Shown: one piece after another, positions 3,001 to 41,900 of the stretch
Layout: each line of letters opens with the position of its first letter
How positions within the stretch are numbered: position 1 is the stretch's first letter
Origin: Beroe forskalii
Lineage: Eukaryota; Ctenophora; Nuda; Beroida; Beroidae
Reading direction: 5' to 3'
Assembly (NCBI GenBank): GCA_011033025.1
Contig: WFMF01000035.1
Location: 558,001-622,000, forward strand
Length of the DNA stretch: 64,000 nucleotides
Program-made: the position numbers and the translations under genes
The notes under the pieces: generated by a model
Told to the model about the DNA's origin: nothing
Databases searched by the model: none
Seen by the model: only the letters and a program-made list of their open reading frames with translations

Positions 3001-6000
3001 GCCCCGTACTCTGCACATGGGGGACTGTGGGTGGGAAGGAGCCCCGTACGCTGCACATGGGGGACTGTGGGTGGGAAGGAGCCCCGTACGCTGCACATGG
3101 GGGACTGTGGGTGGGAAGGAGCCCCGTACTCTGCACATGGGGGACTGTGGGTGGGAAGGAGCCCCGTACTCTGCACATGGGGGACTGTGGGTGGGAAGGA
3201 GCCCGTACGCTGCACATGGGGGACTGTGGGTGGGAAGGAGCCCCGTACTCTGCACATGGGGACTGTGGGTGGGAAGGAGCCCTGCACGCTGCATGGGGGA
3301 CTGTGGGTGGGAAGGAGCCCCGTACGCTGCACATGGGGGACTGTGGGTGGGAAGGAGCCCCGTACTCTGCACATGGGGGACTGTGGGTGGAAGGAGCCCA
3401 GTACGCTGCACATGGGGGACTGTGGGTGGGAAGGCCCCAGTACACTGCACATGGGGACATGGGAAGGGCCCCGTACTCTGCACATGGGGGACTGTGGGTG
3501 GGAAGGAGCCCCGTACGCTGCACATGGGGGACTGTGGGTGGGAAGGAGCCCGTACTAACTGCACATGGGGGACTGTGGGTGGGAAGGAGCCCTGTACGCT
3601 GCACATGGGGACTGTGGGTGGGAAGGAGCCCCGTACTCTGCACATGGGGACTGTGGGTGGGAAGGAGCCCTGTACGCTGCACATGGGGACTGTGGGTGGG
3701 AAGGAGCCCCGTACTCTGCACATGGGGGACTGTGGGTGGGAAGGAGCCCCGTACACTGCACATGGGGGACTGTGGGTGGGAAGGCCCCGTACGCTGCACA
3801 TGGGGGACTGTGGGTGGGAAGGAGCCCCGTACGCTGCACATGGGGGACTGTGGGTGGGAAGGAGCCCCACTCTGCACATGGGGGACTGAAGGAGCCCCGT
3901 ACGCTGCACATGGGGGACTGTGGGTGGGAAGGAGCCCCGTACTCTGCACATGGGGGACTGTGGGTGGGAAGGAGCCCCGTACGCTGCACATGGGGGACTG
4001 TGGGTGGGAAAGGAGCCCTCTACACTGGGGTACATGGGGGACTGTGGGTGGGGAAGGAGCCCCGTACTCTGCACATGGGGGGGACTGTGGGTGGGAAGGA
4101 GCCCGTACTCTGCACATGGGGGACTGTGGGTGGGAAGGAGCCCCATGCACGCTGCACATGGGGGACTGTGGGTGGGAAGGCCCCTGCACATGGGGGACTG
4201 TGGGTGGGAAGGAGCCCCGTACGCTGCACATGGGGGACTGTGGGTGGGAAGGAGCCCCGTACGCTGCACATGGGGGACTGTGGGTGGGAAGGAGCCCCGT
4301 ACTCTGCACATGGGGGACTGTGGGTGGGAAGGAGCCCCGTACGCTGCACATGGGGGACTGTGGGTGGGAAGGAGCTGTACTACGCTGCACATGGGGGGAC
4401 CCGTACCCTGCACATGGGGGACTGTGGGTGGGAAGGAGCCCGTACGCTGCACATGGGGGACTGTGGGTGGGAAGGAGCCCCGTACTCTGCACATGGGGGA
4501 CTGTGTGTGGGAAGGAGCCCCAACGCTGCACATGGGGGACTGTGGGTGGGAAGGAGCCCCGTACCCTGCACATGGGGGACTGTGGGTGGGAAGGAGCCCC
4601 GTACGCTGCACATGGGGGACTGTGGGTGGGAAGGAGCCCCGTACGCTGCACATGGGGGACTGTGGGTGGGAAGGAGCCCCGTACCCTGCACATGGGGGAC
4701 TGTGGGTGGGAAGGAGCCCCGTTCTCTGCACATGGGGGACTGTGGGTGGGAAGGAGCCCCGTACGCTGCACATGGGGGACTGTGGGTGGGAAGGAGCCCC
4801 GTACTATGCACAATGGGGACTGTGGGTGGGAGGGAGCCCCGTACCCTGCACATGGGGGACTGTGGGTGGGAAGGAGTCCCGTACACTGCACATGGGGGAC
4901 TGTGGGTGGGAAGGAGCCCCGTTCTCTGCACATGGGGGACTGTGGGTGGGAAGGAGCCCCGTACGCTGCACATGGGGGACTGTGGGTGGGAAGGAGCCCC
5001 GTACCCTGCACATGGGGGACTGTGGGTGGGAAGGAGCCCCGTACGCTGCACATGGGGGACTGTGGGTGGGAAGGAGCCCCGTACTCTGCACATGGGGGAC
5101 TGTGGGTGGGAAGGAGCCCCGTACTCTGCACATGGGGGACTGTGGGTGGGAAGGAGCCCCGTACTCTGCACATGGGGGACTGTGGGTGGGAAGGAGCCCC
5201 GTACCCTGCACATGGGGGACTGTGGGTGGGAAGGAGCCCCGTACCCTGCACATGGGGGACTGTGGGTGGGAAGGAGCCCCGTACTCTGCACATGGGGGAC
5301 TGTGGGTGGGAAGGAGCCCCGTACTCTGCACATGGGGGACTGTGGGTGGGAAGGAGCCCCGTACTCTGCACATGGGGGACTGTGGGTGGGAAGGAGCCCC
5401 GTACGCTGCACATGGGGGACTTTGGGTGGGAAGGAGCCCCGTACTCTGCACATGGGGGACTGTGGGTGGGAAGGAGCCCCGTACGCTGCACATGGGGGAC
5501 TGTGGGTGGGAAGGAGCACGGTACCCTGCACATGGGGGACTGTGGGTGGGAAGGAGCCCCGTACTCTGCACATGGGGGACTGTGGGTGGGAAGAAGCCCC
5601 CTACGCTGCACATATGGGACTGTGGGTGGGAAGGACCCCCTTACGCTGCACATGGGGGACTGTGGGTGGGAAGGAGCCCCGTACTCTGCACATGGGGGAC
5701 TGTGTGTGGGAGCCCCAACGCTGCACATGGGGATGGGGATGGGCCCCGTACCCTGCACATGGGGGACTGTGGGTGGGAAGGAGCCCCGTACGCTGCACAT
5801 GGGGGACTGTGGATGGGAAGGAGCACGGTACCCTGTACATGGGGGACTGTGGGTGGGAGGGAGCCCCGTACGCTGCACATGAAGGACTGTGGATGGGAAG
5901 GAGCCCCGTACTCTGCACATGGGGGACTGTGGGTGGGAAGGAGCCCAGTACGCTGCACATGGGGGACTGTGGGTGGGAAGGAGCCCCGTACTCTGCACAT

Positions 6001-7305
6001 GGGGGACTGTGGGTGGGAAGGAGCCCAGTACACTGCACATGGGGGAACTGTGGGTGGGAGGGAGCCCCGTACGCTGCACATGGGGGACTGTGGGTGGAAA
6101 GGAGCCCCGTACCCTGCACATGGGGGACTGTGGGTGGGAAGGAGCCCCGTACTCTGCACATGGGGGACTGTGGGTGGGAAGGAGTCCCATACGCTGCACA
6201 TGGGGGACTGTGGGTGGGAAGGAGCCCCGTACTCTGCACATGGGGGACTGTGGGTGGGAAGGAGCCCCATACGCTGCACATGGGGGACTGTGGGTGGGAA
6301 GGAGCCCCGTTCTCTGCTCATGGGGGACTGTGGGTGGGAAGGAGCCCCGCATGCACATGGGGGACTGTGGGTGGGAAGGGCCCTGTACCTGGCACATGGG
6401 GGACTGTGGGTGGGAAGGAGCCCCGTACGCTGCACATGGGGGACTGTGGGTGGGAAGGAGCACGGTACCCTGTACATGGGGGACTGTGGGTGGGAAGGAG
6501 CCCCGTACTCTGCACATGGGGGACTGTGGGTGGGAAGGAGCCCCGTACGCTGCACATGGGGGACTGTGGGTGGGAAGGAGCCCCGTACGCTGCACATGGG
6601 GGACTGTGGGTGGGGAAGGAGCCCCGTACTCTGCACATGGGGGACTGTGGATGGGAAGGAGCCCCGTACGCTGCACATGGGGGACTGTGGGTGGGAAGGA
6701 GCCCCGTACTCTGCACATGGGGGACTGTGGGTGGGAAGGAGCCCCGTACGCTGCACATGGGGGACTGTGGGTGGGAAGGAGCCCCGTACTCTGCACATGG
6801 GGGACTGTGGGTGGAAAGGAGCCCCGTACGCTGCACATGGGGGACTGTGGGTGGGAAGGAGCCCCGTACTCTGCACATGGGGGACTGTGGGTGGGAAGGA
6901 GCCCCGTACTCTGCACATGGGGGACTGTGGGTGGGAAGGAGCCCCGTACGCTGCACATGGGGGACTGTGGGTGGGAAGGAGCCCCGTACGCTACACATGG
7001 GGGACTGTGGGTGGGAAGGAGTCCCGTACGCTGCTTATGGGGGACTGTGGGTAAGAAGGAGCCCCGTACTCTGCACATGGGGGACTGTGGGTGGGAAAGA
7101 GCCCCGTACGCTGCACATGGGGGACTGTGGGTGGGAAGGAGCCCCGTACGCTGCACATGGGGGACTGTGGGTGGGAAGGAGCCCCGTTCTCTGCACATGG
7201 GGGACTGTGGGTGGGAAGGAGCCCCGTACCCTGCACATGGGGGACTGCTGGTGGGAAGGAGCCCCGAACGCTACACATGGGGATTGTGGGTGGGAAGGAG
7301 CCCCG
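1..7305. repeat. 40-bp minisatellite array, about 180 copies
   Basis: The whole stretch is a head-to-tail array of a 40-bp unit that begins CACATGGGGGACTGTGGGTG, continues GGAAGGAGCCCCGTAC and closes with a variable dinucleotide plus CTG (GCTG, TCTG, CCTG or ACTG). The array runs off the left edge of the window, so its true length is unknown. From about 4440 to 7290 nearly every unit is exactly 40 bp. Left of that, units are often shortened or lengthened, mostly inside G or C runs. The unit has no stop codon in several frames on either strand, and 40 is not a multiple of 3, so every frame cycles with a 40-residue period and very long open frames appear by chance. The G-rich strand has closely spaced G runs and could form G-quadruplexes. 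No gene is supported here. Confidence 0.97.
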
Positions 7306-7633
7306 AACCTCCCCAGAAACTGGTTATCTCAGATGCTGACAAGTACTTTGTTATTGGCTGCCAAGCGCCATTATCCGTTATATGCAGCTGTGGCAACGTG
7401 GCTCTTTTTAACCAGTTGCAACTTACACTGCATGGTGTTACCACCAACAGGTGTCTCAATCATTACACATTGGGAGCGGATAAAGTATCTCAACGATTTG
7501 CAGCACATCGAGGGAGAGTCTAAAGCAGCTCTCTAAATCTTTCCTTAAAATATGGGTGAAATCAGCACTACTGCACCACTGTCAGTAGGACTATCATCCC
7601 CTGAATTTAAACTTTGTAGAATTATCCAGATCA
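7306..7633. other. unique DNA flanking the minisatellite, no gene recognised
   Basis: The 40-bp array ends near 7305 and gives way to non-repetitive DNA. Two plus-strand frames that run out of the array stay open to stops at about 7523 and 7536. I could not match either translation to a family, and neither has a convincing splice site or start of its own. This could hide a host exon, but nothing seen proves it. Confidence 0.4.
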
Positions 7634-15951: not shown

Positions 15952-17133
15952 CCTAGAGGATAAGTGAAGTAATGATTTAGAAGCTCACCTCAATTCTCAA
16001 TCAATTGGTATGCCCTTTGACTGCTCAGCTCAGACCATAAATTACCTCAATACCTGATATATACTGATGAACACCAAACCCTTTTATTCTTCTACTACAT
16101 CAAGAGTGCAGGAAACATATTACTCTAAAAATTGAAAAGTAAAAAAGAGTCATTATAGGTAGCTTCTTAATATTCCTCGAGAAAATAATAGTGAATAACT
16201 TAACTGAATTAATTTTCAGAAACTAAAACGTATCATGTGTTCTCACTTTTCATATTCATTGGCTGAAAACAAAACATCAAAAGGTATCATGTCCCAGTAA
16301 CTGTCCTTAAATAACTCCTTAACAAAATAACAAGGGCCAAATTAGAAAAATTATGCACTTCTAAATAAAGTGGGGAGTATAGGGCTGGTCAAAATGCATC
16401 TGGTTATCAAATTGCGAGACTTTAATGGAGTTCAACAAAAATCATCTCAGAGTCCAGGAAAAGTCACCAAAAAACGAATCAAAGTGAATGCATGTTCAAT
16501 CAAATGGGTGAACTAGTTCAACTGTTCATTATGAATTCACTGTGAATTATCTGAATTCAGTATACTTCATAAGATGTGTAATTCATACTTTATATGTGAT
16601 ATGTATTCAAATGGGGATCAACTTGAAATTCACTGGAAAAATATTCATTGGTAAAAGAATGTAAGAATTTGTGACATGTATTCATATTGGATTCATCAAA
16701 ATCTACAGTCTACACTTATTAGTAAATTGATGAGAATCCAAATGGACTAATTAGTCAAACCATTTGCCACAAAAAACACTGCAACAGTTAAAGAACTAAA
16801 TTAATAATTATTAATTATAAGGAAAGAGTCGTTTAAATCATAAAAGAAATAAAAGAACAGGTTTGCAATAAATGCAAATTGTTGTTGGATTTCACTTCTC
16901 CCTGCTAAATTGCAACAATTTGTTCAATTAAAAAAAAAGGCTCGCACACATATTAATGTAACACAATGGTAATGAGTTGTTTGATGTGATTGATCATTGA
17001 TGCAGTGAAACAAAAAACTTTCAATAAAGTAATCTAACCCACACACTATACTCCACTATTCTACTGACAGTTTCAAGATTATAAAAATCTCTTCTTCAGG
17101 AACTCCATATATAATAAGGTCATAATAGAGTTG
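15952..17133. other. AT-rich DNA upstream of the TMEM272-like gene
   Basis: Non-repetitive AT-rich DNA with scattered short inverted motifs. It must hold the promoter and any 5' UTR exon of the minus-strand TMEM272-like gene, but no core promoter element can be singled out. No coding signal is seen. Confidence 0.4.
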
Positions 17134-18552
17134 AACCGGGAAAAAATTGATACAAGCATGAAACCTTCACCAAGAGTTAGTTTTAGGTCTAATAAACATA
17201 TCCTGAAAGTTCTCAAACTCAGTACCTTGAGAACATTTTTTTATGGGCCACGCCCTTTTTGACTGCCCCCAAATTCCCCCAAATTGCTAAAATAATTTCA
17301 TCCCTGACTAGGCATGCTTGGGGTGTCTAGGATATTGTTTTTGATGATGCTGAATCGATTCCCGATGTCAGTTTTTCATACTGACCTTCAGAGGGCCCTA
17401 CGTAAATCCACGCCCATTTTGAGGCCACATATAAGTCTTCAAATTATCAATAACCATATACTTTGATCAATACCATACATATAGGTAGTCAAAATTATGG
17501 TTTTTGAGGACGCTTGAGTCGATTCCCGATGTTTGTTTTGCACTCAGACGTTTCTATGGCCCTTGACCATGCTTCCATTTTCACCAAAAGGCGCCAAATT
17601 ACACAATTGTCTTCTTTACAGTCAGATATAATGCATGTGGGGTGTCTAGGATATGGTTTTTGATGGCGCTGAGTCGATTCCCGCTGGCAGTTTTTCTGCC
17701 GACAACTTCCTGTGAGGCTCTTCCATGCGACCACGCCCACTTTTGAGGCCGCATAAGCCTCAAAATACCATTAACCACAATTCGATCAAATGCATGGAAT
17801 GTGGACACAATCAAAACTTTGGTTTTTGATGTCGCTGAGACGACTCTCGATGTTTGTTGTGGCCTCGGAACTTCCTATCAGGCCCCAGCCAGCCTTGACC
17901 ACGAGTGAGGCCGACAGTCAACATAATTTATGTTAGGGTGCGCCCTTTTTTCAAAGTTTTTTAGGCTCTTTGACTCGATTGTAGATCTCAGTGAGCTGAT
18001 CACGATGATATCAAGTTTTTTGAAAATGGACAATGTCTTCCTTTTGCCTCTGGGCGTTTTTCTGTTTCGTGACGTCACATCCGTGACCTGTCACGTGATC
18101 CTGCTAGTACTTTGTGCGCGCTCTGATTCGCGCGCGCAATTGCTATTCTATGCGCGTTCGCGGATTTGAGTTGTCCGTGTCAATTCTGTGCTATCTATGG
18201 CATTGGTAAGACTTATCTTTATTGAATAATGGAATTTTCTGATAGTTGATACCAATCTATGATAAGACGCAGATAGCAAAATAATTGGGATCAGCTTATC
18301 TTGCCAGTGACATTTTCAAGCTGATAATTGCGATAACTTGGAAAATGGAAGCTCAAGTTTATACATTGAGAGCTGAGAAGTACATTAGTACTATGGGGTT
18401 AAAAATTGTACATCCCTATCAGGAGTGTCCCCAGTCAGATCACATGATAAAGCAGAGGACACACCCTCAACCATTGATAGAGCAGAACAAGGTTCACGTG
18501 ACTGATAGAGGCCGAGGAAGCAAGCAGTATCTCTTTGACCATGAAGAAATCC
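17134..18552 (+). repeat. left outer arm of the 17-27 kb foldback, tandem modules of about 160 bp
   Basis: Four degenerate modules follow each other at 160-165 bp spacing. Each carries GTTTTTGATG, a stretch close to GAGTCGATTCCCGATG (near 17337, 17501, 17657 and 17821) and most have a CCACGCCCA-type block. From about 17937 the arm changes to a different sequence with GTGACGTCACAT, CACGTGA and a CG-rich GCGCGCTCTG block, then enters the 280-bp module ending near 18552. Confidence 0.8.
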
Positions 18553-18939
18553 AGTTAACAGTTTGTTATATTTTAACGAGTAGGCACTCTTGCTAATTCT
18601 ATTTCATCGTCCGGCAGTCTTGAAGCTTATTACGATCCCGAGATCTGTGAAATGTGAAACACAAAAAATCCGTTCTATTGTTTTGCATTTTTTGTCTGGC
18701 GTTGCTACACCCCCTGGGTCTGAAAAAGGCGGACAAAGCGGATTCAAAACGACGCGGAATGTCGCTCGGAATAATGGGAATCGAGGTCTAACCCCATAGT
18801 CAGGGATTAGACCTGCACTTCTGTTGTCTGAGATCGCGAATTCGTACTCTTCTGATTCAGATGATTAGGAAACGGCCAAGATAACGGTATACAAGTTCCT
18901 CAGGATTGTGAACCGTCGCTCAAAATCTGGGCTTCTCTG

Positions 18940-19065
18940 ACACCACCGGCTGGCCGGCCGGCTGGCCGACTTGCCAGACAGCCAGCTAGCCGGTTAGCCA
19001 GCCGGCCAGCAGGTCGGCTAGCCGGCCGGTCAGTTGGTCGGCTAGCCGTCAGCCGACCGTCTTGC
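18940..19065. repeat. GGCCGGCTAGCC-type low-complexity block
   Basis: A run of overlapping GCCGGC, GGCTAGCC and GCCAGC words forms a short GC-rich satellite at the mouth of the inner foldback. A shorter inverted counterpart lies at about 22705-22790. Confidence 0.8.
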
Positions 19066-19363
19066 CAGTGCAATTTTCGAGCTGATAATTGCGATTACTT
19101 GGATATGGAAGCTTTAGTTTGTACATTGGGAGCCAAGAAGTACATTAGTACTATACAAGGTTAAAATTGTACATCCCAATCAGGAGTCAGGGTGCATGTG
19201 AATGCCGAGTGTCCCCAGTCAGATCACATGACAAGGCAAGGGACACTCTCCCTCAACCAATGATCGAGCAGAAAAAGGTTCACGTGACCGATAGAGAAGG
19301 AGGAGGAGGAGGAAGCAAGTAGTATCTATTTGAGAATAAATTAAGATCGGGGAACAGACATTT

Positions 19364-21366
19364 CATCTCCGACACTTCATCTCAAAGTACGACATTTCAT
19401 CTCGTACTGTAAATTGATTTTATCCTGAAGTACGACATTTCATCTTCAGAGTGCGACATTTGACGTTTCATCTCAAAGGGTACGACAATTCATCTTTTAC
19501 TGTAACTTGATTGAACTGTAACTCTGTAAAGTACGACATTTGATCTCTAAGGGTGACACCTCTTATCAGGGTGGGAAACTTGATTTCAGGGCACGAAACT
19601 TCATCTCAACGTACGACACTTCATCTCAGTGTACGACCCTTCATCTCAGACTGCGACATTTCATCTCTCGGTGTGTCACTTCATCTCAAGGAACGACACA
19701 ACATCTCTGGCGGGTACGATACTTCATCTCCAGGTACGACACTTCGTCTCAGACTGCGATATTTCATCTCTGGGTACAACACTTCATCTCAGGATACGAC
19801 ACTTCATCTCAGACTGCGACACTTCATCTCAGACTGCGACACTTCATCTCAATGAAGGAAACTTCATCTCAGTGTACGGCACTTCATCTCAGGGTTCGAC
19901 AATTCAGCTCGGGTACGACACTTCATCTCCGACTGCGACATTTCATCTCAGGTACGAAACTTTGTCTCAGGGTAAGACACTTCATCTCTGGGTACGACAC
20001 TTCATATCAGGGTACGACACTTCATCTCAGACTGCGACATTTCATCTCTCGGTGTGTCACTTCATCTCAAGGAACGACACAACATCTCTGGCGGGTACGA
20101 TACTTCATCTCCAGGTACGACACTTCGTCTCAGACTGCGATATTTCATCTCAGGGTACGACATTTCATCTCAGGGTACAACACTTCATCTCAGACTGCGA
20201 CACTTCATCTCAAGGAAGGAAACTTCATCTCAGTGTACGGCACTTCATCTCAGGGTTCGACAATTCATCTCGGGGTACGACACTTCATCTCAGACAACGA
20301 CATATCATCTCAGGGTACGACATTTCATCTCAGGGTACAACACTTCATCTCAGACTGCGACATTTCATCTCAGGGTACGACACTTCATCTCAGGGTACGA
20401 CATTTCATCTTTTGGTACCACACTTCATCTCAAACTACGACATTTCATCTCAGGGTACGAAACTTCATCTCTGGGTACGACACTTCTGCATCGCTAGGTA
20501 CGACACTTCATCTCAGGGTACAACACTTCATCTCAGACAACGACATTTCATCTCAGGGTACGACATTTCATCTCAGTTACGACACTTCATCTCAGGGTAC
20601 AACACTTCATCTCAGGGTACGACACGTCTTCATCTCAAGGTACGACATCTCATCTCTGGGTACGACACTTCATCTCAAACTACGACATTTCATCTCAGGG
20701 TACGACACTTCATCTCTGGGTACGACACTTCATATCAGGGTACATTACTTCATCTCAGACAACGAAATTTCATCTCAGGGTACGACATTTCATCTCAGGT
20801 ACGACACTTCATCTCAGGGTACAACACTTCATCTCAGGGTACAACACTTCATCTCAGGGTACAACACTTCATCTCAGACAACGACATTTCATCTCAGGGT
20901 ACGACATTTCATCTCAGGTACGACACTTCATGTCAGGGTACAACACTTCATCTCAGACAACGACATTTCATTTCAGGGTACGACACTGCAACACAGGGTA
21001 CGAAACTTCACTCAGACTGCGACATTTCATCTCAGGGTACGACACTTCATCTCAGGGTACGACACTTCTGCATCTCTGGGTACGACACTTCATCTCAGAC
21101 AACGACATTTCATCTTTTGGTACCACACTTCATCTCAAACTACGACATTTCCATCTCAGGGTATGAAACTTCATCTCTGGGTACGACACTTCTGCATCTC
21201 TGGGTACGACACTTCATCTCAGGGTACAACACTTCATCTCAGACAACGACATTTCATCTTTTGGTGCCACACTTCATATCGGACTTCGGCACTTCATATC
21301 TGGCCCTTCATGTGGTACGATACTTCATCTATGAGTATGATCTGCGACATTTCATCTTCATCTCTG
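19364..21366 (+). repeat. 20-bp minisatellite, plus orientation
   Basis: About 100 degenerate copies of TCATCTCAGGGTACGACACT. Variants such as CAGACTGCGACATT, CAGACAACGACATT and TTTTGGTACCACACT recur in blocks, showing that multi-unit segments were duplicated (for example 19620-19860 repeats at about 20000-20240). Confidence 0.95.
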
Positions 21367-21369
21367 GAT

Positions 21370-22392
21370 ACGACACTTCCCAGAGATGAAGTGTTGCAGT
21401 CTGAGATGAAGTGTCGTACCTAGAGATGAAACGTCCCAGTCTGACTCCTGAGATGAAATGTCGCAGTCTGAGATGAATTGTCGTACCTGAGATGAACTTC
21501 GTCGTAACCAGAGATAAAGTGTCGTAATCTGAGATGAAGTGGCGTACTCTCTAGAGATGAAATGTCCCAGTCTGAGATGAAGTGTCGTACCCTGAGATGA
21601 AGTGTCGTACCTAAAGATGAAATGTCCCAGTCTGAGATGAAGTGTCGTACCCTGATATGAAGTGTCGTACCCAGAGATGAAGTGTCTTACCCTGAGACTA
21701 AGTGTCGTACCTGAGATGAAATGTCTTACCCTGAGATAAAGTTTCGTATCCAGAGATGAAATGTCGCAGTCGGAGATGAAGTGTCGTACCCCGAGATGAA
21801 TTGTCGAACCCTGAGATGAAGTGCCGTACACTGAGATGAAGTTTCCTTCCTTGAGATGAAGTGTCGCAGTCTGAGATGAAGTGTCGCAGTCTGAGATGAA
21901 GTGTCGTATCCTGAGATGAAGTGTTGTACCCAGAGATAGAATATCGCAGTCTGAGACGAAGTGTCGTACCTGGAGATGAAGTATCTTACCCGCCAGAGAT
22001 GTTGTGTCGTTCCTTGAGATGAAGTGACACACCGAGAGATGAAATGTCGCAGTCTGAGATGAAGGGTCGTACACTGAGATGAAGTGTCGTACGTTGAGAT
22101 GAAGTTTCGTGCCCTGAAATCAAGTTTCCCACCCTGATAAGATGTGTCACCCTTAGAGATGAAGTGTCGTAGCCTTGAGATCAAATGTCGTACTTTACAG
22201 AGTTACAGTTCAAATCAAGTTACAGTAAAAGATGAATTGTCGTACCCTTTGAGATGAAACGTCAAATGTCGCACTCTGAAGATGAAATGTCGTACTTCAG
22301 GATAAAATCAATTTACAGTACGAGATGAAATGTCGTACTTTGAGATGAAGTGTCAGAGATGAAATGTCGTGAGATGAGGTGTCGCGAGATGA
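21370..22392 (-). repeat. 20-bp minisatellite, inverted block
   Basis: The same 20-bp unit as at 19364-21366 read from the other strand (AGATGAAGTGTCGTACCCTG). It is about half as long. The switch point is at about 21367, where CTTCCCAGAGATGAAG marks the turn. The order of variants mirrors the distal part of the plus block, so the block is an inverted duplicate and not an independent array. Confidence 0.93.
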
Positions 22393-22875
22393 AATGTCCG
22401 TTCCCCGATCTTAATTCATTGTCAAAGAGATACTACTTGCTTCCTCCTCCTCCTCCTCCTTCTCTATCAGTCACGTGAACCTTTTTCTGCTCGATCATTG
22501 GTTGAGGGAGAGTGTCCCTTGCCTTGTCATGTGATCTGACTGGGGACACTCGGCATTCACATGCACCCTGACTCCTGATTGGGATGTACAATTTTAACCT
22601 TGTATAGTACTAATGTACTTCTTGGCTCCCAATGTACAAACTAAAGCTTCCATATCCAAGTAATCGCAATTATCAGCTCGAAAATTGCAGTGGCAACATG
22701 GTGTTGACGGCTAGCCGACCAGCTGAAATGACCGGCCAGCTAGCCGACCTGCTGGCCGGCTGGTTACAAGCTGGCTGTCTGGCGAGGTTTTGAGATGAAA
22801 CTTGATGCGAGCCAGGATATTTTTAGTGTCAGAAAAGCAACATTTCAGCGAAGTTTCACAATTTTTGAGGAACAG

Positions 22876-23958
22876 TATGCGACTTTTACCCCCGACTTTT
22901 ATCCTTGACCTTTTACCACTTTAAAAAGGATAAACATGCGGTTTTTTTGTCCCCCGTCTTTTTATCCCCCATTGGTATAGAAATGGAAAGTGTTTAATAA
23001 GTAATTTATCCTGAAATTGTCAGCTTGAGGCCCAAAAAACTCTGAGACCAGCTTCTGGATTGTGTTCGGCATCCTTTTCTGGTAGAGTGGTGAAGGAATT
23101 TCCTCTCTGGATATCGTGGATGGTAGCTGCTGTGTGTCTACTGCTTCTCCAAGGAGACTCCCAGGGAGTTTCAGAATGAGGGATGCTGATAGCTGATGGG
23201 GCTGTTCATGGAGTGATATGGAATGCTGTAAGGTAGTCCTGAGTGGATCCCTGAGCATCTCTGTCGTAGACATTCCACATCACGAGAGGGAATGTGCGTT
23301 TTATCCCTAAAGTGCCAGTGGAAGATGGGGGAGCGTCAGGAAGGAAAGAGGTTGGCAGACACTTGATAGACCAACAGTCCAGAGAAGAACGACGGAAAGA
23401 GCAGAGCTTGTGTCTTCTTCTCCCGAATCAGAGGTTTTACTGATGGGGAAGAGTTCCATGGCTGCTTGAACTGAAGGATCATGATACGATCCTTGGTAAG
23501 TTGGTACCTGACACCATTGCTCGAACCAGACAGAGGTTCAGAGGTTTACTTAGGGAAGAGTTCCTGCTGCTTGAACTGAAGGATCATGATACGATCCTTG
23601 GTAAGTTGGTACCTGAAGAGTACCATTGCTCGAACCAGACAGCGTAACGTATTCATTTCTCCTCAAATGTGATCCAGTGGGGGTAAAGGTCGCAGTTCTA
23701 TGGTTAGACTGTCGATTCCCCCATCGAAGAGCGACATTCCGGGATTTGAATCCAGTTCTTTGTCCGACTTTTTATCCCCCTGCTTCATTTGGGCTCGTTT
23801 TCAATAGGGACAAAAGTCGCAGTCTATATAGAAGTGCGCTTTTTTTATCCTCCTTAGAAAACAGTATAGATCAAAGGCAAGTAGGGGTAAAAAGGTCGCA
23901 CGATGAAATAGAATGGTAAAAGGTCGGGGGATAAAAAGTCGGGGGGTAAAAGGTCGCA
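22876..23958. mobile_element. 1.1-kb insert with its own inverted ends inside the foldback right arm
   Basis: The left end (ATGCGACTTTTACCCCCGAC) and the right end (the inverse, ending GGTCGCAT) are inverted copies built from CGACTTTTTATCCCCC-type words. The stretch has no partner in the left arm of the larger foldback, so it looks like a later insertion into the right arm. It holds a 110-bp tandem duplication and no recognised gene. Confidence 0.65.
23431..23643. repeat. 110-bp tandem duplication
   Basis: Two copies of a segment starting GAGGTTTTACT and ending GCTCGAACCAGACAG, at 23431 and 23541. They differ by a few short indels, which points to a fairly recent duplication. Confidence 0.9.
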
Positions 23959-24599
23959 TCACCGATTTCTTCATGGTCAAAGAGATACTGCTTGCTTCCT
24001 CGGCCTCTATCAGTCACGTGAACCTTGATCTGCTCTATCAATGGTTGAGGGAGTGTCCTCTGCTTTATCATGTGATCTGACTGGGGACACTCCTGATAGG
24101 GATGTACAATTTTAACCCTGTATAGTACTAATGTACTTCTCAGCTCTCAATGTATAAACTTGAGCTTCCATTTTCCAAGTAATCGCAATTATCAGCTTGA
24201 AAATGTCACTGGCAAGATAAGCTGATCCTTAAATTATTTGCTATCTGCGTCTATCATAGATTGGTATCAACTATCAGAAAATTCCATTATTCAATAAAGA
24301 TAAGTCTTACCAATGCCATAGATAGCACAGAATTGACACGGACAACTCAAATCCGCGAACGCGCAGAATAGCAATTGCGCGCGCGGAATCAGAGCGCGCA
24401 CAAAGTACTAGCAGGCAGATCACGTGACAGGTCACGTGATGTGACGTCACGAAACAGAAAAACGCCCAGAGGCAAAGGAAGACATTGTCCATTTTCAAAA
24501 AAATTGATATCATCGTGATCAGCTCACTGAGATCTACAATCGAGTCAAAGAGCCTAAAAAACTTTGAAAAAAGGGCGCACCATAATGTATGTAGACCAG

Positions 24600-26354
24600 T
24601 GTCGAAATATTATGGTTTTTGGTGGTTCCTGAATGGATTGCTAGTGCCAGTTTTGCCGTTTTGTATTCCAACCGCTTCTTGAGAATGAGGATCTATTGAC
24701 TACCGCATCTACTTTTGATTGCTGAGTAATTATAATGCATGTAGGTTGTTATGATTTTCTTGGTCACCGGACCAATTCCAGGTGTTAGTTTTGCAAATTG
24801 CACCCAGATCTCACCTTAAGGATTCAGCATCAAACATTCCCATTTCAAATTTTAGGTGTTCTGAATGGAGGCTTAGAAGTGCCAGCCTCAATTTAACTTA
24901 ACCTGCTAATCAGGGGATCCTCGTGGTTAATCTTCGGAACTATCCCAAATCCTTCTCGGGCTCTATTATTCATGCCTTCATGATCACTGATCAGTGGTCA
25001 TTCATTTCGAAGGTTTTTTCTTCTCTTCCACCAATGACAGGAATCGAAGGATTCAACTATATCAAGCTGCCAGTGACGGTTAAGTTAGTGTAATACTTGC
25101 CTTAGACCTCGCTACAACTCCTTATTTCTTTATTTAATCCTCCTGCAGTGCAGCTTTCCTGTATGCTTGGCCGAGTGAACCGTGTGGCTGCATAGGTGAG
25201 TACTCTCGGCCGGGAGTGTAATCCAGCATCTTTCTATTGCAAAGCAAAACACACTATGTTGCGATAGAACTATAGAAGTTTATTGTTATTTACTGTTACT
25301 TTCTTACTTTATGCTTTTATGATTACTAATGATACTGTTTAGATAGGTCCCTTAGTAGCTAACAAGAAGTTTCACTGAGTACGAACTTTGACCCGTTAGA
25401 CCTACCAATACACCAACTTTCAAATGACAACAGTGATAGTCATGAGTCTGAACCGGTTTGGGTACCAATGCCATTCGCACTAGGTATGCTGTTGTGCTAA
25501 GGAAGAAAGGATGACAGATTCTTTTCAACCGAAGCAGCCGCACAGTTCACTCAGGTGAGGAAACGGAGCAGCTGCTGGTTACATGAAGAATTGAAGAAAT
25601 ACTGATCAGTGATAAGTGTTTAAATGATTGGATGGGCCAATGACGTAGAATAAACTAGGCCGGGTGGCACACATGCCAAGCCCAGACTCATACTTACTGT
25701 TTCTTTGACAGAGGATGAAGGACGTGTAATCTTAAGTAGCTGTACTACTGAACAGTGAACATGTTGCTCCTATCCTTCCATCCATGTTCCAAGTTCAGAA
25801 ATCCAAACCAGTGCCTATGAAAACTTCTCGCCTTTCACCTGATTGTCGCCTGTGGATTAGCCCTCGGCATAAATTGCCGTCTGTTTTTTGTATTTGATGA
25901 TAGGTAAACATTAAAAGCGACAATTTTTCAGCATTGAGATATATGGATGAAGCTGCCGTTGATATTTTAGACTTTGGTGTAATGCAATATTAGTTTTAGT
26001 AGGTTGCTGTGTGCACTCTTATCTGAATCAAACAGGTTAGGTTTGGTGATTCAGAGTCGATGGCAAATGGAATGTAACTATCAGCACATAGAAATGGAGT
26101 GCAAAAGTAAAGACACTACTCAGACGTATAGCTCTTTTGGGCTAAGGGATGGTGCCTGGCTCTGAGCAGTGAGCAGAAGAGTTTGCAAGGGTGAGGGACG
26201 AGGGTGAAGGAGGACTGAGTTAAAGGGTGAGAACTGAGGGAGCACTCAAGGGTTACCTGATTATAAGGATGATACCGAATACCGATACCAATACTATAAA
26301 GTATAATAAATTTACTCCTCGTCAAGCCTGCGGCCTGATAGAAAGTTCTGAGTC
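24600..26354. other. unpaired spacer in the right half of the foldback
   Basis: Mixed unique DNA without a counterpart in the left half. It includes short frames only, none recognised. It is either an insertion into the right arm or DNA lost from the left arm. Confidence 0.5.
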
Positions 26355-27087
26355 CACAGCGGGCATCGAGAGTCGTCTCAGCGACATCAAAAACTAAAGT
26401 TTTGATTGTCCACATTCATGCATTTGATCGAATTGTGGTTAATGGTATTTTGAGGCTTATGCGGGCCTCAAAAGTGGGCGTGGTCGCATGAAGAACCTCA
26501 CAGGAAGGTTGGTATGAAAAACTGCCAGCGGGAATCGACTCAGCGCCATCAAAAACCATATCCTAGACACCCTACATGCATTATATCGACTGTAAAGTCA
26601 ATTGTGTTATTTTGGGCCCAACGCGCCTTGATGAAAAATGGGCGTGGTCAAGGCTAGGGCCATATAGGAACGTCTGAGTGCAAAACAAACATCGGGAATC
26701 GACTCAGTGTCCTCAAAAACCATATAATTTTGACTACCTATATGTATAGTATTGATCAAAGTATGGTTATTGATAATTTAGGCTTACGCGGGCCTCAAAA
26801 ATGGGCGTGGTCCCATGTAGAGCCTCACCTGAAGGTCAGTATGAAAAAATGACATCGGGAGTCGATTCAGCGTCATCAAAAACCCTATTCTAGACACCCT
26901 ACATGCCTAGTCGGGCTAAAATTAAATTTTTGGCAATTTTGGGGAATTTGGGGCAGTCCAAAAAAGGGCGTGGCCCATAAAAAATGTTCTCAAGGTATCT
27001 GAGTTTGAGAACTTTCAGGATATGTTTATTAGACCTAAAACTAACTCTTAGTGAAGGTTTCATGCTTGTATCAATTTTTTCCCGGTT

Positions 27088-28410
27088 ATGCAAAAAATTT
27101 ATCTAATATCACCTTACTATAGTGCAACACAACATTCTGAGATTAATGTGAAGTGATGTTTGAAAGTATGAAAATCAATATAAAATGTTAAAACACAAAA
27201 ACACAACAATATATAATTAATGAACCCATGGTGAAAACCTAAGAATGAACTCTCTAAAAAGCATCTTATAACTCAATGAAAAATAATGGTAATGAAACAT
27301 AATTAATACTCATCATGGAAAGATGGCATTTATGTATTCTGTCATTTCTTATTGTATTAAATACCAAGTAAAATTGCAGCAATGGCAGTAACTGGAATGT
27401 ATAGTGTAATAGTGTATACCTATAATTATTGCAATATTGCATGTGAAATACCAGATTTTTTATGCAATATAATCCAATAGTAACTAATTACTTACAAATA
27501 ACAAATCAGGCATCATGTAGTATAGCACCTGGATGTGAACATTACTGTGTACAGATGTATAAGTAGGTACTTTGAAACTGAAATGAAACTATAGATCTGA
27601 TGGTACTTAAGAGACGTCACTAGTTGTTCTTCTCTGGCTGTAATACCTGCTCAATCTCAACTGTCTAATATATCTCTAGAGCTCGAGAGATCGAGACATC
27701 ATGGGACTACAGAGCTCCCCTAAAGATTTTGTCCTTATTAATAATCCCCTTACATAGTATCATGAAAGATACACACATTTTACACACAAACTACTATAGC
27801 TGGCAAAGCCAATTAAAAAAACTTTAAAATCTGCCAAAAGCAAATAAAACCTGTGAAAGCCAGTGAAAACCCACAAAACTAAAATCCTGTGAAAGCCTGT
27901 AAAAATGCATGAAAGTCCATAAAGACATACAAAGGCCAGTAAAAACCCAAAAGGCCCATTAAAACCAGTGAAAGGCCAAAAACTAGAGAAAGCCTACACC
28001 AGTTCCCCCATTGGGGCGGCAGGAAGGAGAGCAGGCTACCTAGTTTTCAAAAGATCCTCTAGGAAAATCTTAGGGGCCTCTGTGCCTAAACTCAATCTAT
28101 GATTACATCCAAAATTTGAGAATCTTCAAAATAAAGCATTAAAATTGAATTTTAATTCAAAATAAAGCATTAAAATTGAATTTTAATTCAAATAAGCATA
28201 AAATAATAATAATAATAATATAATATAACAATTTTACTATAAAGTGACACTGTTCATTCTATAAAACTAGCTAAAAACTTCATCCTTCCTTTCCACACCT
28301 TATATCCAAAGTGTACAAAAATAGAATAAAAATTGGCAATCAAAATACTTCACTACTATTACATACCTTCACAAGGTACCCCCAATCTAAAGTCAAAATT
28401 ATAAAAATAC
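27088..28410. other. AT-rich DNA with degenerate small repeats
   Basis: No gene is seen. 27790-27990 contains a degenerate run of GTGAAAGCC / CCAGTAAAAACC words spaced about 15-20 bp. 28127-28190 holds two tandem copies of a 31-32 bp unit that includes the palindrome AAAATTGAATTTTAATT. An AAT microsatellite lies at about 28201-28222. Confidence 0.7.
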
Positions 28411-35958: not shown

Positions 35959-38900
35959 GTGAGCATCATCAAACTTAAACAGATATGTTATTGATTATCT
36001 TTTTGCCTATTCTAAGACTCCCAGATGAACTTGATCACTATTTGATTTACTATTTTGGAATCTAGAACAAAGAACAACATTGTTTCTATTGCACCTTTGT
36101 TATTTCTTCAGGATTTGTACCTTTACAATTGTAAAGTCCCCAACTCCCCACCTCATCTTTCAGGGGGAGGGGCAGACTGACAGTACCAACATTACCAGCA
36201 CAGGGGTAATGGGATACCACACTTATGGTGTTACAAGGGTGTTCTGAAAGCCTCCATCTTGGGTTTAGCTTTCCTGAAAAGAATAAAAGTTAAAAGAAAT
36301 TTTTCCTTGGAAGGCATGCGAATTCAATGATCTGGTTCCATTATGTTCGTTGACGTTTACTTTGCAACTTCAGTGAAGTTTACTGGACGTTAGACTCTGT
36401 AGCATCAGTGTGGGATACTGTGCCCACATTTAGTATTTTGGCATAGTGTTGGGTCTGGTTTCTAAGTGGCTAGAGGTGTGGTAGGTTATTTGATGTTCGA
36501 TTAAGGCTGAAATCGGGATTTAGGTAGGGGATAGTAGGGGGGAGTATTAAAGGCCCCCAACTGATAAATTTTAAATTTTAATTTTCCATTTTTTAGTGAA
36601 TGTGGTCCTATAGGTGAAATATCAACAATAACAGCGAAAAATATGGTTTCTATATGATGTTTTGACCGACTCACCAAAAAACTTTTAGTCAAAATTGATT
36701 GTTCAGAAGTTTATTTTATGAGGCACAAAGATTGCCGTTTTCAAGTTATGGTATGTAAACATGGGATTCCTCTGCTGCCTGACCTATTTTCAATCGCTCA
36801 TAGCTAAACACTTAGAGTTAGAGGGTGGACAAAGTACATTCTACCACGCCCTCAATATCTATAGAATTAGTCAAAGTCAAAAATTTTATGTTCAAATTTT
36901 TTAACTCACTTCCCACAGTGCCAAATAAATGGAGGGGAGTGGAGACGTTAGCAATTTTTGATTTTTTCCTGCTAAGAACTTATTTTCCCAGCTTAAACCT
37001 TAAAGAATTTCAAGAAGGTTCTTCCGGTTATTAGAAATTGAGTGTATACCATACCATGAACCTCAAAAACCATGACAACCATTACCTTCAACTGTGGATA
37101 TTATTGGGGTGTCACTGTCCTTTCGTCCGTAAACAGGTATTAATCAAGCTGTTGTCCGCTTTTTGAAAGCCAGTAACGCATGAAACGGATTTTTCCGTTT
37201 TTTTTCCTTTTCGTCTGCGTTTCAAAAGCAGGAAACAGCACAGGTCTGTTTTGTCTGTGATTGGCTCACCCTCAACTGTATGTTTCGGGACCTTGAGACG
37301 TCTTAAGAAGACTCTTCCAGGGTATCTGAGGAGTCTCGAGACGTATCTAAGATTCTAAGAAGACTTGTGGGTATCTGAGGAGTCTCAGAGTATTTATAAA
37401 AGTTTCAGGGGAGGGCACTGCCTATTCGTCGCTTGTTTGAGGAAGGAGAGCACAAAAACATAATTTCATTGAGTTTATGGTGTTCTAGGACTCTAAAAAA
37501 GGAGAGTGACAGTACCACACTCCTCGTGAGATCGAATTAGGGAGCGTGGCCGACTGGCTGCCACATTGTGTACCATTGCAGAAGTCTGGCAAAAAATAAT
37601 GAAATAGTGTTGCAGACTGTGATAATCTACCAAAGAGCCACATTGCATTTGACTGATAAGATTTGAGTGAACCACCTGGGTGATTCATGTTGAGTCCATG
37701 ATCGGCAGTGCCATAACAGATTTGAACTGCAACACACTAACATTTTCCTGATCTCTGTTCTCAAGCGGTCCAGATGATTCCCAGCAGGGGAAGAGGGGGT
37801 TGAGAAGCACCTAAGCGTGGTATTGTGGCATTGTCATAGTGCCCAAGCATCGCGCCCGCGCGGCGTGGAGAAGGTGTTCTAGCGTTTTTGTCGTCAAAAG
37901 TGTCAGGATTTTACAGGATTTTTACAAGAGGTTCCTCTCCATTCTTGTCATGGATTTACGGAATTTCCGCCAATTAAAGTATCAACAAAGAGCTCCATGT
38001 GGCTTTTGCATGAAGTACTATGTCTGCTCGATATCACGTTCTATGTTTAAGGCGGTTCGGCTGACGTAATTTTAATTGATAAGAGTGGATGCTTGATTAC
38101 GTAATATTGACTACTTGCTTGAATGAAACCTTATCCGTATCATGATATGGATTACAGATATTCTTAGAAATTCGTAGGAGCTTGTTCGTGTCCAGCTACG
38201 GAACGCGCCGCATGCTTTGTCGAGGATCAATAGGTACAACTCCTGTAAAATCATGACAATTTTGGGCTAGAACATCTACTGGCGGCGTGAGAATGCTACG
38301 TAACAACGTAGGGCGCACGGTTTACATATTGACAGCCGTGGCGCAACTAACTAATTAACTGAAATTAAATTAAATTAAATCACGCGCGAATTTTGAAAGG
38401 GTGAAGCAAGAGGATGCGGAAGGAAAGCCTCATTTCTGCCCTTATACTCTAGTAGCCAGCTGCAGATGTGTATGCATTTCATTGCCCAGAATTTTTGACC
38501 GTTCCAGGTTGTTTTTCAGGCAATTCTGGACCAGAATCATCTAGGTACATAAAATGTATCGCTATTCACATGCCTGTGGGGCCACGCCCATGCCACGCCC
38601 TTATGCGCGTATGAGTAAAATTCATATCTCGGCCCAGGAAGGTCGTAGAGACTTCGTTTTTTAGCTCAAACGAACCGCAATGGCCATGTTTATATTCGAC
38701 TTGTTGATAAACATATGCCCTTAAATGCTCAGAAAGAAAGTTATGGACGAAAAACTGGTTTTTGGACCATACGCGAGCCATGTATTTGATGATTAATGTA
38801 TCTCGGCCCAAGATGGTCGTACAGACTTTGTTTTTAGCTCAATAGAACCACAATGACCACGTTTATATACAATTTGTCAATCTAAATATGCTCAAAAGTT

Positions 38901-41900
38901 CCCAGAAGTACAGTAATGGGCCAAAAACTGGAATTTCAACCACGCGTGGGACATGTATCAGAGGATTTTTGTATGGATGTACCTGCTCAAAATTAGCTTA
39001 AGAGTATATGCGAAGACTGGGAATCATGTTTTTGTGCATGCAATCAAAGCCCATTCTGCTCACGCTCCACAGTGTAACAATGTAAATTGCACAATCTTCC
39101 TTGATGATTTGTATATTTTTATCTATATACTACAGTATGGAAGTGCTGAATTATGATAAGCAATCAACCGTGACCCAAAAGTTGGTAGGAAAACAGTAAA
39201 ATGCAAAAAATAAAATAAACTAAAAGACATAAATATAACCACACCCCTAAGTAAGCCGACCACACTCCTATGTAAGCCTATCACACCCCTAAGTAAGCCT
39301 ATCACACCCCTAAGTAAGCCTATCACACCCCAAAGTAAGCCTATCACACCCCTATTAAGTAAGGCTATCACACCCCTAAGTAAGCCTATCACACCCCAAA
39401 GTTAGCCTATCACACCAATTTTAAGTCAGGCTATGACACTCCTAAGTAAGTCTATCACACTACTAACTAAGCCTATCAGACCCCTAAGTAAGCCTATCAC
39501 ACCCCTAAGTTAGCCTATCACACCCCTAAGTAAGCCTATCACACCCCTAAGTAAGCTTATCACACCCCTAAGTAAGCCTATCACAACCCTAAGTTAACCT
39601 GTCACACCCCCAAAGTAAGCCTATCACACCTATATTAAGTCAGGCTATCACACTCCTAATTAAGTCTATCACACTACTAACTAAGCCTATCAGACCCCTA
39701 AGTTAGCCTATCACACCCCTAAGTAAGCCCATCACACCCTTCAGTTAGCCTTACACACCCCTAAGTAAGCTTATCACACCCCTAAGTAAGCCTATCACAA
39801 CCCTAAGTGAGCCTATCACACCCCAAAGTAAGCCTATCACACCCCTATTAAGTTAGCCTATCACACTCCTAAGTAAGCCTACCACTCTCCTAAGTAAGCT
39901 TATCACACCCCTAAGTAAGCCTATCACAACCCTAAGTGAGCCTATCACACCCCAAAGTAAGCCTATCACACCCCTATTAAGTTAGCCTATCACACTCCTA
40001 AGTAAGCCTACCACTCTCCTAAGTAAGCCTATCACACCCCTATTAAGTAAGGCTATCACATAGGCCCTAAAGTAAAGCCTACCACTCTCCTAAGTAAGCC
40101 TGTCACACCCCTATTAAGTTAGCCTATCACACTCCTAAGTAAGCCTACCACTCTCCTAAGTAAGCTTATCACACCCCTAAGTAAGCCTATCACAACCCTA
40201 AGTGAGCCTATCACACCCCAAAGTAAGCCTATCACACCCCTATTAAGTTAGCCTATCACACTCCTAAGTAAGCCTACCACTCTCCTAAGTAAGCCTATCA
40301 CACCCCTATTAAGTAAGGCTATCACACTCCTAAGTAAGCCTACCACTCTCCTAAGTAAGCCTGTCACACCCCTATTAAAGTATTAAGTAAGATTATCGCG
40401 CTCCTAAGTAGGCCTATCACACCCCTGGCCCTAAGTAAGCCTATCATATCTCTAAGTAAGCCTATCACACCCCTATTAAAGTATTAAGTAAGATTATCGC
40501 GCTCCTAAGTAAGCAATTCACACCCCTAAGTTAGCCTATCACACTCCACAGTTACCCTCCTAACCCGAAATGTATGGTCAATCCTAAGGGAAAGCATGGG
40601 GAATCCCTTAAAAATAAGTGGTTTTGCTGAGGGATCCCCAGCTCTATTTTTAAGGGTTTCCTTTTCTATTACAAAGGATTCCCTGATTTTTAAAAGCAAA
40701 TCCCCAAAAACACACTACGTTTTACTACATGTCTTCTTGACGCTCTACTTCGGTACAGCAAGCATATTTCTGATCTCGAGATGTCTTGTTCACACAAGCA
40801 TTGGTCTCTTGGTGCCAAGAAACCATAATTTTGAGTTCAAACACCCTAAATTCTCCAGGATTTGCTACCAGTTTCAAGGGAAAAGGTAATTTTTAAAGGG
40901 AAATCATTAACTTCTGCATATGGGCCATTAACTTTAAACTGCCCAGATATTCTCGATTTTGTTTTTAGAAGCTTTCAATCTCATCTCATGTAAGACAAAA
41001 CTTTGACCATCATGCTGACCAGAGTCACCAAATTTGAAAATGGAATATGACTATTCTGTCCTGATCCTTGTCACTTGATTGACGTTTGGTCAGTCTATGG
41101 TGGTATTTGCAACTTTTGTGAGTCAAGAACAACCATCAATAAAACTGATTATGTATCAAAATGTGTAACTGAAATTTGTCACTGAGTGTACTGACGAATT
41201 GCTGATTATGGAAGCCATGTAGAAATTTAGTTCTTTTGAACTATTAAAATAAGTAGTAAAAAAGTTGAATTATTTCAATATTATTAGTTCTACAGATTGC
41301 AGATGAAAAATCTATTGAAGTCCCCAACTGTTTCTAGCATCAAAACAGGTCAGTTTTAAATTTTTTGAATCTGTCAGAAATACCTACTAACCTAAAAACG
41401 TGTCCTTGTGGCAATTCAAATTCGATATATCCTTTGATACATGTCCCACGCATGGTTGAAATTCCAGTTTTTGGCCCATTACTGTACTTCTGGGAACTTT
41501 TGAGCATATTTCGATTGACAAATTGTATATAAACATGGCCATTGTGGTTCTATTGAGCTAAAAACAAAGTCTGTACGACCATCTTGGGCCGAGATACAAT
41601 AATCATCAAAAACATGGCTCGCGTATGGTACAAAAATCAGTTTTTCGTCCATAACTTTCTTTCTGAGCATTTTAGGGCATATGTTTATTAACAAGTTGAA
41701 TATAAACATGGCCATTGCGGTTCGTTTGAGCTAAAAACGAAGTCTCTACGACCTTCCTGGGCCGAGATATGAATTTTACTCATACACGCATAAGGGCGTG
41801 GCATGGGCGTGGCCCCACAGGCATGTGAATAGCGATACATTTTATGTACCTAGATGATTCTGGTCCAGAATTGCCTGAAAAACAACCTGGAACGGTCAAA

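Follow-up and report, generated by a model that had tools for sequence, protein, structure and literature searches.

How a palindrome about ten kilobases long, which looks like a foldback inside a foldback, came into being is the question raised by a locus of the ctenophore Beroe forskalii (assembly GCA_011033025.1, contig WFMF01000035.1, hereafter C414). This locus belongs to a 64,000-nucleotide stretch, positions 558001-622000 of C414, which is referred to here as the window and whose first letter is position 1. The locus very probably corresponds to three nested DNA transposons, two of which are of the foldback type and none of which is a foldback copied into itself. The structure, odd-looking as it is, is of an already described kind. 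In the proposed scenario, an outer 3.3-kb foldback would have been hit by a 6.65-kb foldback of another family, and this middle element would itself carry, in its right arm and at the place of a lost spacer, a 1.1-kb Mutator-derived element.

Comparison of the window with itself reveals outermost inverted arms at 17134-17888 and 26328-27087 (87% alike), middle arms at 17933-18551 and 23964-24585 (96.5% alike) and an inner foldback at 18970-20315 and 21379-22786 (87.6% alike). The top inverted repeat scores 1778 bits, versus no more than 33.7 bits when 17000-27200 was shuffled 20 times with its dinucleotides preserved. Stacked inverted repeats had been claimed in a preliminary description made from the sequence alone, and both the self-comparison and the shuffle scores bear them out over 17112-27119. 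Likewise, the 280-bp module that was said to occur twice in each orientation is found in four copies, at 18298-18545 (+), 19060-19333 (+), 22415-22699 (-) and 23977-24217 (-). The 20-bp central minisatellite is present as described, but it turns round at 21379 and not at about 21367, and the limits of the elements are slightly shifted, to 17112-27119 for the outer element, 17934-24584 for the inner one and 22873-23963 for the insert. The features of the locus are the following:

17112..27119, no strand: outer foldback, AACCGGG family, with everything else nested inside; ends TAATAAGGTCATAATAGAGTTG ... CACCTTACTA
17134..17888, + strand: left arm of the outer element, made of ~320-bp direct repeats (self-comparison and genome matches)
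17926..17933, + strand: left copy of the 8-bp target duplication, ATTTATGT
17934..24584, no strand: inner foldback, TAGGGTGCGCC family, 6,651 bp, inserted in the outer element (termini, target duplication, empty site in locus L016)
17934..18551, + strand: outer part of the inner left arm ('TIR5'), holding module B1 at 18298-18545
18552..18932, + strand: arm spacer (SP), in this copy in the left arm only
18953..19047, + strand: GC-rich 24-bp tandem repeats of the left arm
19060..19333, + strand: module B2 of the left arm
19347..21378, + strand: minisatellite with 15/20-bp units, forward
21379..22408, - strand: minisatellite, reverse orientation
22415..22699, - strand: module B2 of the right arm
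22705..22786, - strand: right-arm remnant of the GC-rich repeats; the spacer expected next is missing
22873..23963, + strand: 1.1-kb Mutator-derived non-autonomous element, third level of nesting; ends about CAGTATGCGAC ... GTCGCATCACC
23964..24584, - strand: outer part of the inner right arm, holding module B1 at 23977-24217
24585..24592, + strand: right copy of the 8-bp target duplication, ATGTATGT, a 7/8 match (the empty site reads ATGTATGT)
24590..26327, + strand: core of the outer element (at 12 other loci, core matches are enclosed by the same arms)
26328..27087, - strand: right arm of the outer element (self-comparison and genome matches)

The genome-wide searches covered the 216-Mb assembly (1,134 contigs). 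The candidates scored were the best 40 of 390 and the best 40 of 244 for the arm and module searches, the best 40 of 43 for the outer arm, the best 40 of 131 for the 1.1-kb insert and the best 40 of 653 for the outer core; all copy numbers are lower bounds. At least 45 places match the outer arm 17134-17888, and at 12 other loci two inverted outer arms have core matches in between. The copy of L016 (C192:956104-959387), which lacks the last few bases of the true end, displays 3,284 bp between its AACCGGG ends, and the size of the elements of this family is about 3.3 kb. The flanks of ten other copies place the true ends of the family outside the AACCGGG repeats, at TAGTAAGGT...ACCTTACTA. Target duplications of 3 bp surround five of these ten copies and duplications of 4 bp three of them, whereas none of the 90 cross-element pairs used as a control matches at 3 or 4 bp; no 3-bp duplication is visible around the outer copy of the window. 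The end AACCGGGAAAAAATTGATAC, searched with at most two mismatches, occurs 30 times in the genome, versus one match for the reversed control. The outer core also includes, at 25001-25207, a separate dispersed repeat of about 200 bp, which is found at more than 20 other places at ~75%, apart from the outer family.

The relation between the outer and inner elements is given by L016, a relative of the outer element that keeps an empty site reading ...CAACATAATGTATGTAGACC.... Therefore, the target duplication of the window corresponds to ATTTATGT/ATGTATGT and the inner element to 17934-24584. Among the 16 elements of the inner family for which both ends were located (loci with one located end were not counted), target duplications are exactly 8 bp in seven and exactly 9 bp in seven, and the remaining two, the window copy and L032, display an 8-bp duplication with one mismatch. 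None of the 240 left-right pairs taken from different elements matches at 8 or 9 bp, and three more elements of the family display, by eye, duplications of 9, 9 and 8 bp. The dispersed copies of 17934-24584 are thus flanked by target duplications, as foldback-type elements are. The end TAGGGTGCGCCCTTTTTTCAAA, with at most two mismatches, gives 211 matches in the genome versus none for the reversed control (100 of the 211, through contig C447, were listed). No repeat common to the AACCGGG and TAGGGTGCGCC families is listed in the self-comparison of the window. The foldback inside a foldback previously described is a real nesting, but its boundary lies between these two families and not where it had been drawn.

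The internal organization of the inner element was compared with that of 20 loci chosen by their matches to the arm or the module. In all 20, at least one arm displays the same order, i.e. TIR5 (620 bp, ending in B1), spacer, GC-rich repeats and B2 (also designated MODI), and in 12 of them both arms follow this order (TIR5-SP-GCR-MODI, where GCR stands for the GC-rich repeats). Many copies carry in addition an extra partial copy of the TIR5 end between the spacer and the GC-rich repeats. Because this compound order recurs at other loci, the 'inner' and 'middle' palindromes are one single pair of arms; the 'inner foldback' at 19066-22695, previously taken for a separate element, belongs to the same element as the arms that start at 17933 and end at 24585. 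To judge from the sequences compared, the compound arm marks a single large branch within a broader family whose ends are related.

The history of the module can be read from 19 copies originating from five elements. In the window, L018, L022 and L031, the B1 copies are 95-99% alike and the B2 copies 95-98% alike, whereas B1 and B2 are only 87-93% alike when gap columns are left out (~76-80% in BLAST with gaps). As B1 copies resemble each other, and B2 copies each other, more than B1 resembles B2, the duplication precedes the spread of the compared copies. The shared module thus corresponds to an old direct duplication within the arm, which predates the dispersal of most of the copies compared, and the compound arm pair would move as a unit. 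The left arm of L061 carries an extra partial B1 and an extra B2, both showing 100% identity with the first copies, which indicates recent arm growth. Furthermore, a 30-bp sequence at the turn of the minisatellite (at most four substitutions) is common to 15 of the 25 loci examined, so the palindrome of these 15 loci formed a single time before being copied. The minisatellite arrays on both sides of the turn are unequal in the window (~2.0 and ~1.0 kb) and their lengths vary among copies.

The two arms of an element also resemble each other more than chance pairing predicts. Indeed, in 13 two-armed elements, the mean identity between own left and right arms is 0.983, versus 0.969 for shuffled partners, a value reached in none of 20,000 shufflings, and in the arm tree seven of the 13 own pairs are sisters, with strong support in two cases (L061, L021). 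Some homogenization of the arms within elements is supported, although not proven, by these identities, given that subfamily descent also raises the identity of own pairs. In the proposed mechanism, direct repeats would make the arms longer, through slippage or unequal exchange between them, and the two arms of an element would be kept partly alike by conversion or exchange with each other.

The third level of nesting, the separate 1.1-kb insert with inverted ends, was correctly recognized in the preliminary description. At least 130 matches are listed for it. A relative on contig C99, whose ends and several parts match the insert at 74-94%, contains a 331-amino-acid frame with the Pfam domain PF10551 of Mutator-like elements (MULEs), which scores 44.5 bits in the genome search and 42 bits in the frame, above the cut-off. 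As it matches this domain-bearing element, the insert can be considered a Mutator derivative; a MULE transposase is thus encoded by a copy with the same ends. Duplications of 8 bp, which fall within the 8-11 bp of MULEs, were seen by eye around the insert copies of L019, L020 and L021, two of them being located inside minisatellite, where chance matches come easier; the copies of L033 and L023 display no readable target duplication. A second insert, located in L017, is flanked by the 8-bp repeat GTGTCACT (by eye) and includes a 157-amino-acid frame that resembles MULE weakly, its score of 20.5 bits being below the 27.6 required.

Inserts of this kind recur inside the foldbacks. Of 28 foldback loci, window included, 24 were counted (L025, L026, L035 and L036, with one end not located, were left out), and 10 of these contain the Mutator-end motif, with 55 matches in 138,107 bp versus none in 83,801 bp outside, the outside sequence coming mostly from the window. 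In this count, the window had been chosen for its insert, as had L033 in part, and the matches of L060 are symmetric between its two arms, of which they may be a component. According to a rough count, six of the best 40 insert loci, window included, fall within the listed foldback intervals, which represent 0.10% of the genome; these intervals number 89, many being single 22-bp ends, and the known inserts of L019 and L020 are not among the insert matches listed. This distribution could reflect targeting as well as better survival of nested copies. A possible but rather doubtful extension is that non-autonomous MULEs with TGCGAC-CCCCC ends insert by preference into the minisatellite arms, rich in TGCGAC, of foldbacks of the TAGGGTGCGCC family, arm conversion keeping these pads symmetrical; if true, foldbacks would serve as landing pads, sparing the host while giving refuge to the guest. 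A kinship between the minisatellite unit and the ends of the Mutator insert (a CGAC rhythm of ~15 bp) was noticed on visual inspection and is given no weight here.

The earlier statement that no transposase is visible holds for the foldbacks. The Pfam scan concerned 21 frames, i.e. the C99 frame and 20 open frames from foldback loci; only the former exceeded its cut-off, the 20 others, examined without intron modelling, giving no match above theirs. In the larger end pairs (L061, L064, L065 and L066) and the short L058-L060, no transposase frame was recognized among the open frames listed, whose minimum size was 90 amino acids in one survey and 130 in another, minisatellite-rich frames being left out of one of the two. 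The Pfam matches of a 159-amino-acid frame of L065 are weak and stay below the cut-offs, coiled-coil families being among them. The frame 4127-4597 of L020 was considered as a transposase of the Merlin/ISXO2 type and discarded, Pfam giving no supporting match. PF10551 has 46 matches in the genome, two of which lie in examined foldbacks (L021 and L023), in stretches that resemble nested inserts. The target duplications of the inner family, 8-9 bp long, are within the 8-11 bp given for MULEs (PMC6446971) and agree with the 8-10 bp on which the assignment of Tetris to Mutator was based (PMC4079207). This length suggests mobilization of the Mutator type, and it is rather probable that the inner element is moved in trans by a transposase whose Mutator-like nature we infer; this MULE transposase would recognize the TAGGGTGCGCC ends and leave 8-9-bp duplications.

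Several observations weigh against this overall interpretation. Among seven elements chosen by their ends alone, only L066 displays the full order; L061 and L064 possess TIR5, spacer and B2 but give no match to the GC-rich repeats, and in L058, L059, L060 and L065 the resemblance is confined to the terminal 236 bp (~80%), the minisatellite being a different one. The B1 and B2 modules of L061 are 96-97% alike, unlike those of the four other elements. The exact turn junction is absent from ten of the 25 loci: L058-L060, which have the other type of minisatellite, L025, L026, L035 and L036, whose centre or one of whose arms was not observed, and L020, L021 and L033, whose arrays meet otherwise or hold an insert. 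As to arm homogenization, the excess of own-arm identity is small and subfamily descent could cause the same; the own right arm ranks first in only five of the 13 elements and eleventh in L031, and the arms of the window (0.979) resemble each other less than each of them resembles L025 (0.984 and 0.994). No transposase was recognized between TAGGGTGCGCC ends in the loci examined, which represent a minority of the 211 ends. Lastly, no target duplication is seen around the insert of the window. As the spacer of the right arm is missing where this insert sits, the insertion was accompanied or followed by a deletion.

L058-L060 also have a particularity of their own: almost the entire 2.4-3.1 kb of these elements, which carry the ends of the inner family, is one palindrome.

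Could the inner palindrome 19060-22699 nevertheless be an independent foldback inserted into a copy of its own family? Such a self-insertion would account for the shared module, nested inserts are common in the family, and the presence of the full compound arm in only one of the seven loci picked by their ends goes in the same direction. However, a single event at this locus cannot yield both modules in the same order at the 20 loci picked by arm or module, and B1 and B2 are distinct old types in four of the five elements compared. A self-insertion of recent date is rejected on the grounds that the compound arm recurs elsewhere, while an ancient one, in an ancestor of the family, is compatible with the data; as a whole, self-insertion appears very unlikely. 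The preliminary description was thus right that the shared module calls for more than simple insertion, but self-insertion, one of the two explanations that it offered, does not fit with a compound arm found at 20 of 20 loci. The other one, repeated replication slippage across the hairpin that would have created the palindrome separately at this locus, is in keeping with the unequal arrays of the window and their variability among copies, but can hardly be reconciled with the presence of the same 30-bp turn junction at 15 of 25 loci and is highly improbable; slippage can nevertheless account for the lengths of the arrays and for duplications of modules. Inverted repeats are prone to misassembly, and the palindromes might for this reason be suspected of being artefacts. 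Misassembly is unlikely, judging from the same arm order assembled at 20 other loci, the two inverted outer arms that enclose the outer core at 12 other loci and the empty site kept by a relative of the outer element. As the element is assembled at many loci, between flanks and target duplications that differ from one to the next, a purely artefactual origin is barely credible. Absence of the ends and modules from the rest of the genome would speak against the locus, but the search of the whole assembly finds them elsewhere.

Concerning the mobilization of the middle element, a hAT transposase is a rival candidate. Eight of 19 elements have 8-bp duplications, and the TAGGG end of the family resembles hAT ends. 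However, hAT elements are held strictly to 8-bp target duplications, whereas nine of the 19 elements have duplications of 9 bp. Moreover, the hAT dimerization domain gives 23 matches in the genome, none of which, as judged by eye, is located inside one of the foldback intervals listed, the lists of intervals being capped. A hAT origin is therefore improbable, without being as remote as the alternatives discussed above.

The reading in which a compound foldback moved as a unit into an element of another family has parallels in other animals and in plants. The TU elements of sea urchins have modular long inverted repeats with 15-bp tandem repeats, a likeness that concerns their description only. 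Tetris, a foldback of Drosophila virilis, has compound terminal inverted repeats (TIRs) that reach 1,735 bp, in which the end domain and a second, internal domain of tandem repeats have a stretch in common; its target duplications are 8-10 bp, no transposase was found and its authors put it with Mutator (PMC4079207). The inner family resembles Tetris by its compound arms, duplicated internal stretch, variable tandem arrays and the lack of a recognized transposase, but differs by a long inverting minisatellite and GC-rich repeats in its arms, both being likened by description and not by sequence. The foldback-like TIRs of Galileo, a Drosophila element of the P superfamily, grow by internal tandem repeats and by recruitment of internal sequence, its left and right TIRs varying independently (PMC3573991). 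Galileo has a P-type transposase, whereas none was found in the inner family, although no search with a P-type model was made. Tm1 (Mutator/Foldback), from root-knot nematodes, has composite and variable TIRs, 9-bp duplications, non-autonomous groups and, in some of its copies, nested inserts (PMC3169594). One Tm1 member encodes a MULE-like transposase, whereas none was found in the inner family. In plant MULEs, the TIR unit has undergone head-to-tail duplication, which in some families affects both ends, and elements multiplied in this state; the causes discussed are slippage, recombination, acquisition and nested insertion (PMC3310237). Plant MULEs duplicate a whole or near-whole TIR, whereas the inner family duplicates an internal module and its arms meet in a minisatellite palindrome. 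The literature search, judged by titles and beginnings of abstracts, turned up no paper on foldback elements of ctenophores.

A nested-looking palindrome thus need not mean a nested insertion. A family with at least 211 ends allows the growth of foldback arms to be read stepwise, the steps on view being an ancient duplication within the arm, a recent one in L061, the turn that many copies have in common and other centres behind related ends. The lengthening of foldback arms and their symmetry are left open in the papers cited, and the many copies found here lend themselves to testing.

Other repeats occupy the window. A further foldback, at 38444-41957, ends in ATACTCTAGTAGCC/ATACTAGAGTAGCC and has a central 21-bp minisatellite; its arms, 523 and 529 bp long, are 95.7% alike. 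Another one, at 47242-49718, has ends AAAAGTGGACAAATTC and 172-bp tandem repeats that are related (~68-80%) to the arm repeats of the former. Elsewhere in the genome, the mitochondrial COX1 gene, located on contig C1134 (13,339 bp; L057), is very divergent and reads with code 4 (TGA = Trp), a code judged from conserved Arg and Ile positions. Taken with a published description of ctenophore mitochondria (PMC6991124), these traits point to a ctenophore host. Lastly, a 7.3-kb G-rich minisatellite with 40-bp units (1-7308) reaches the left edge of the window, and an 856-bp CCT-rich array (51043-51898) displays a strong strand skew.

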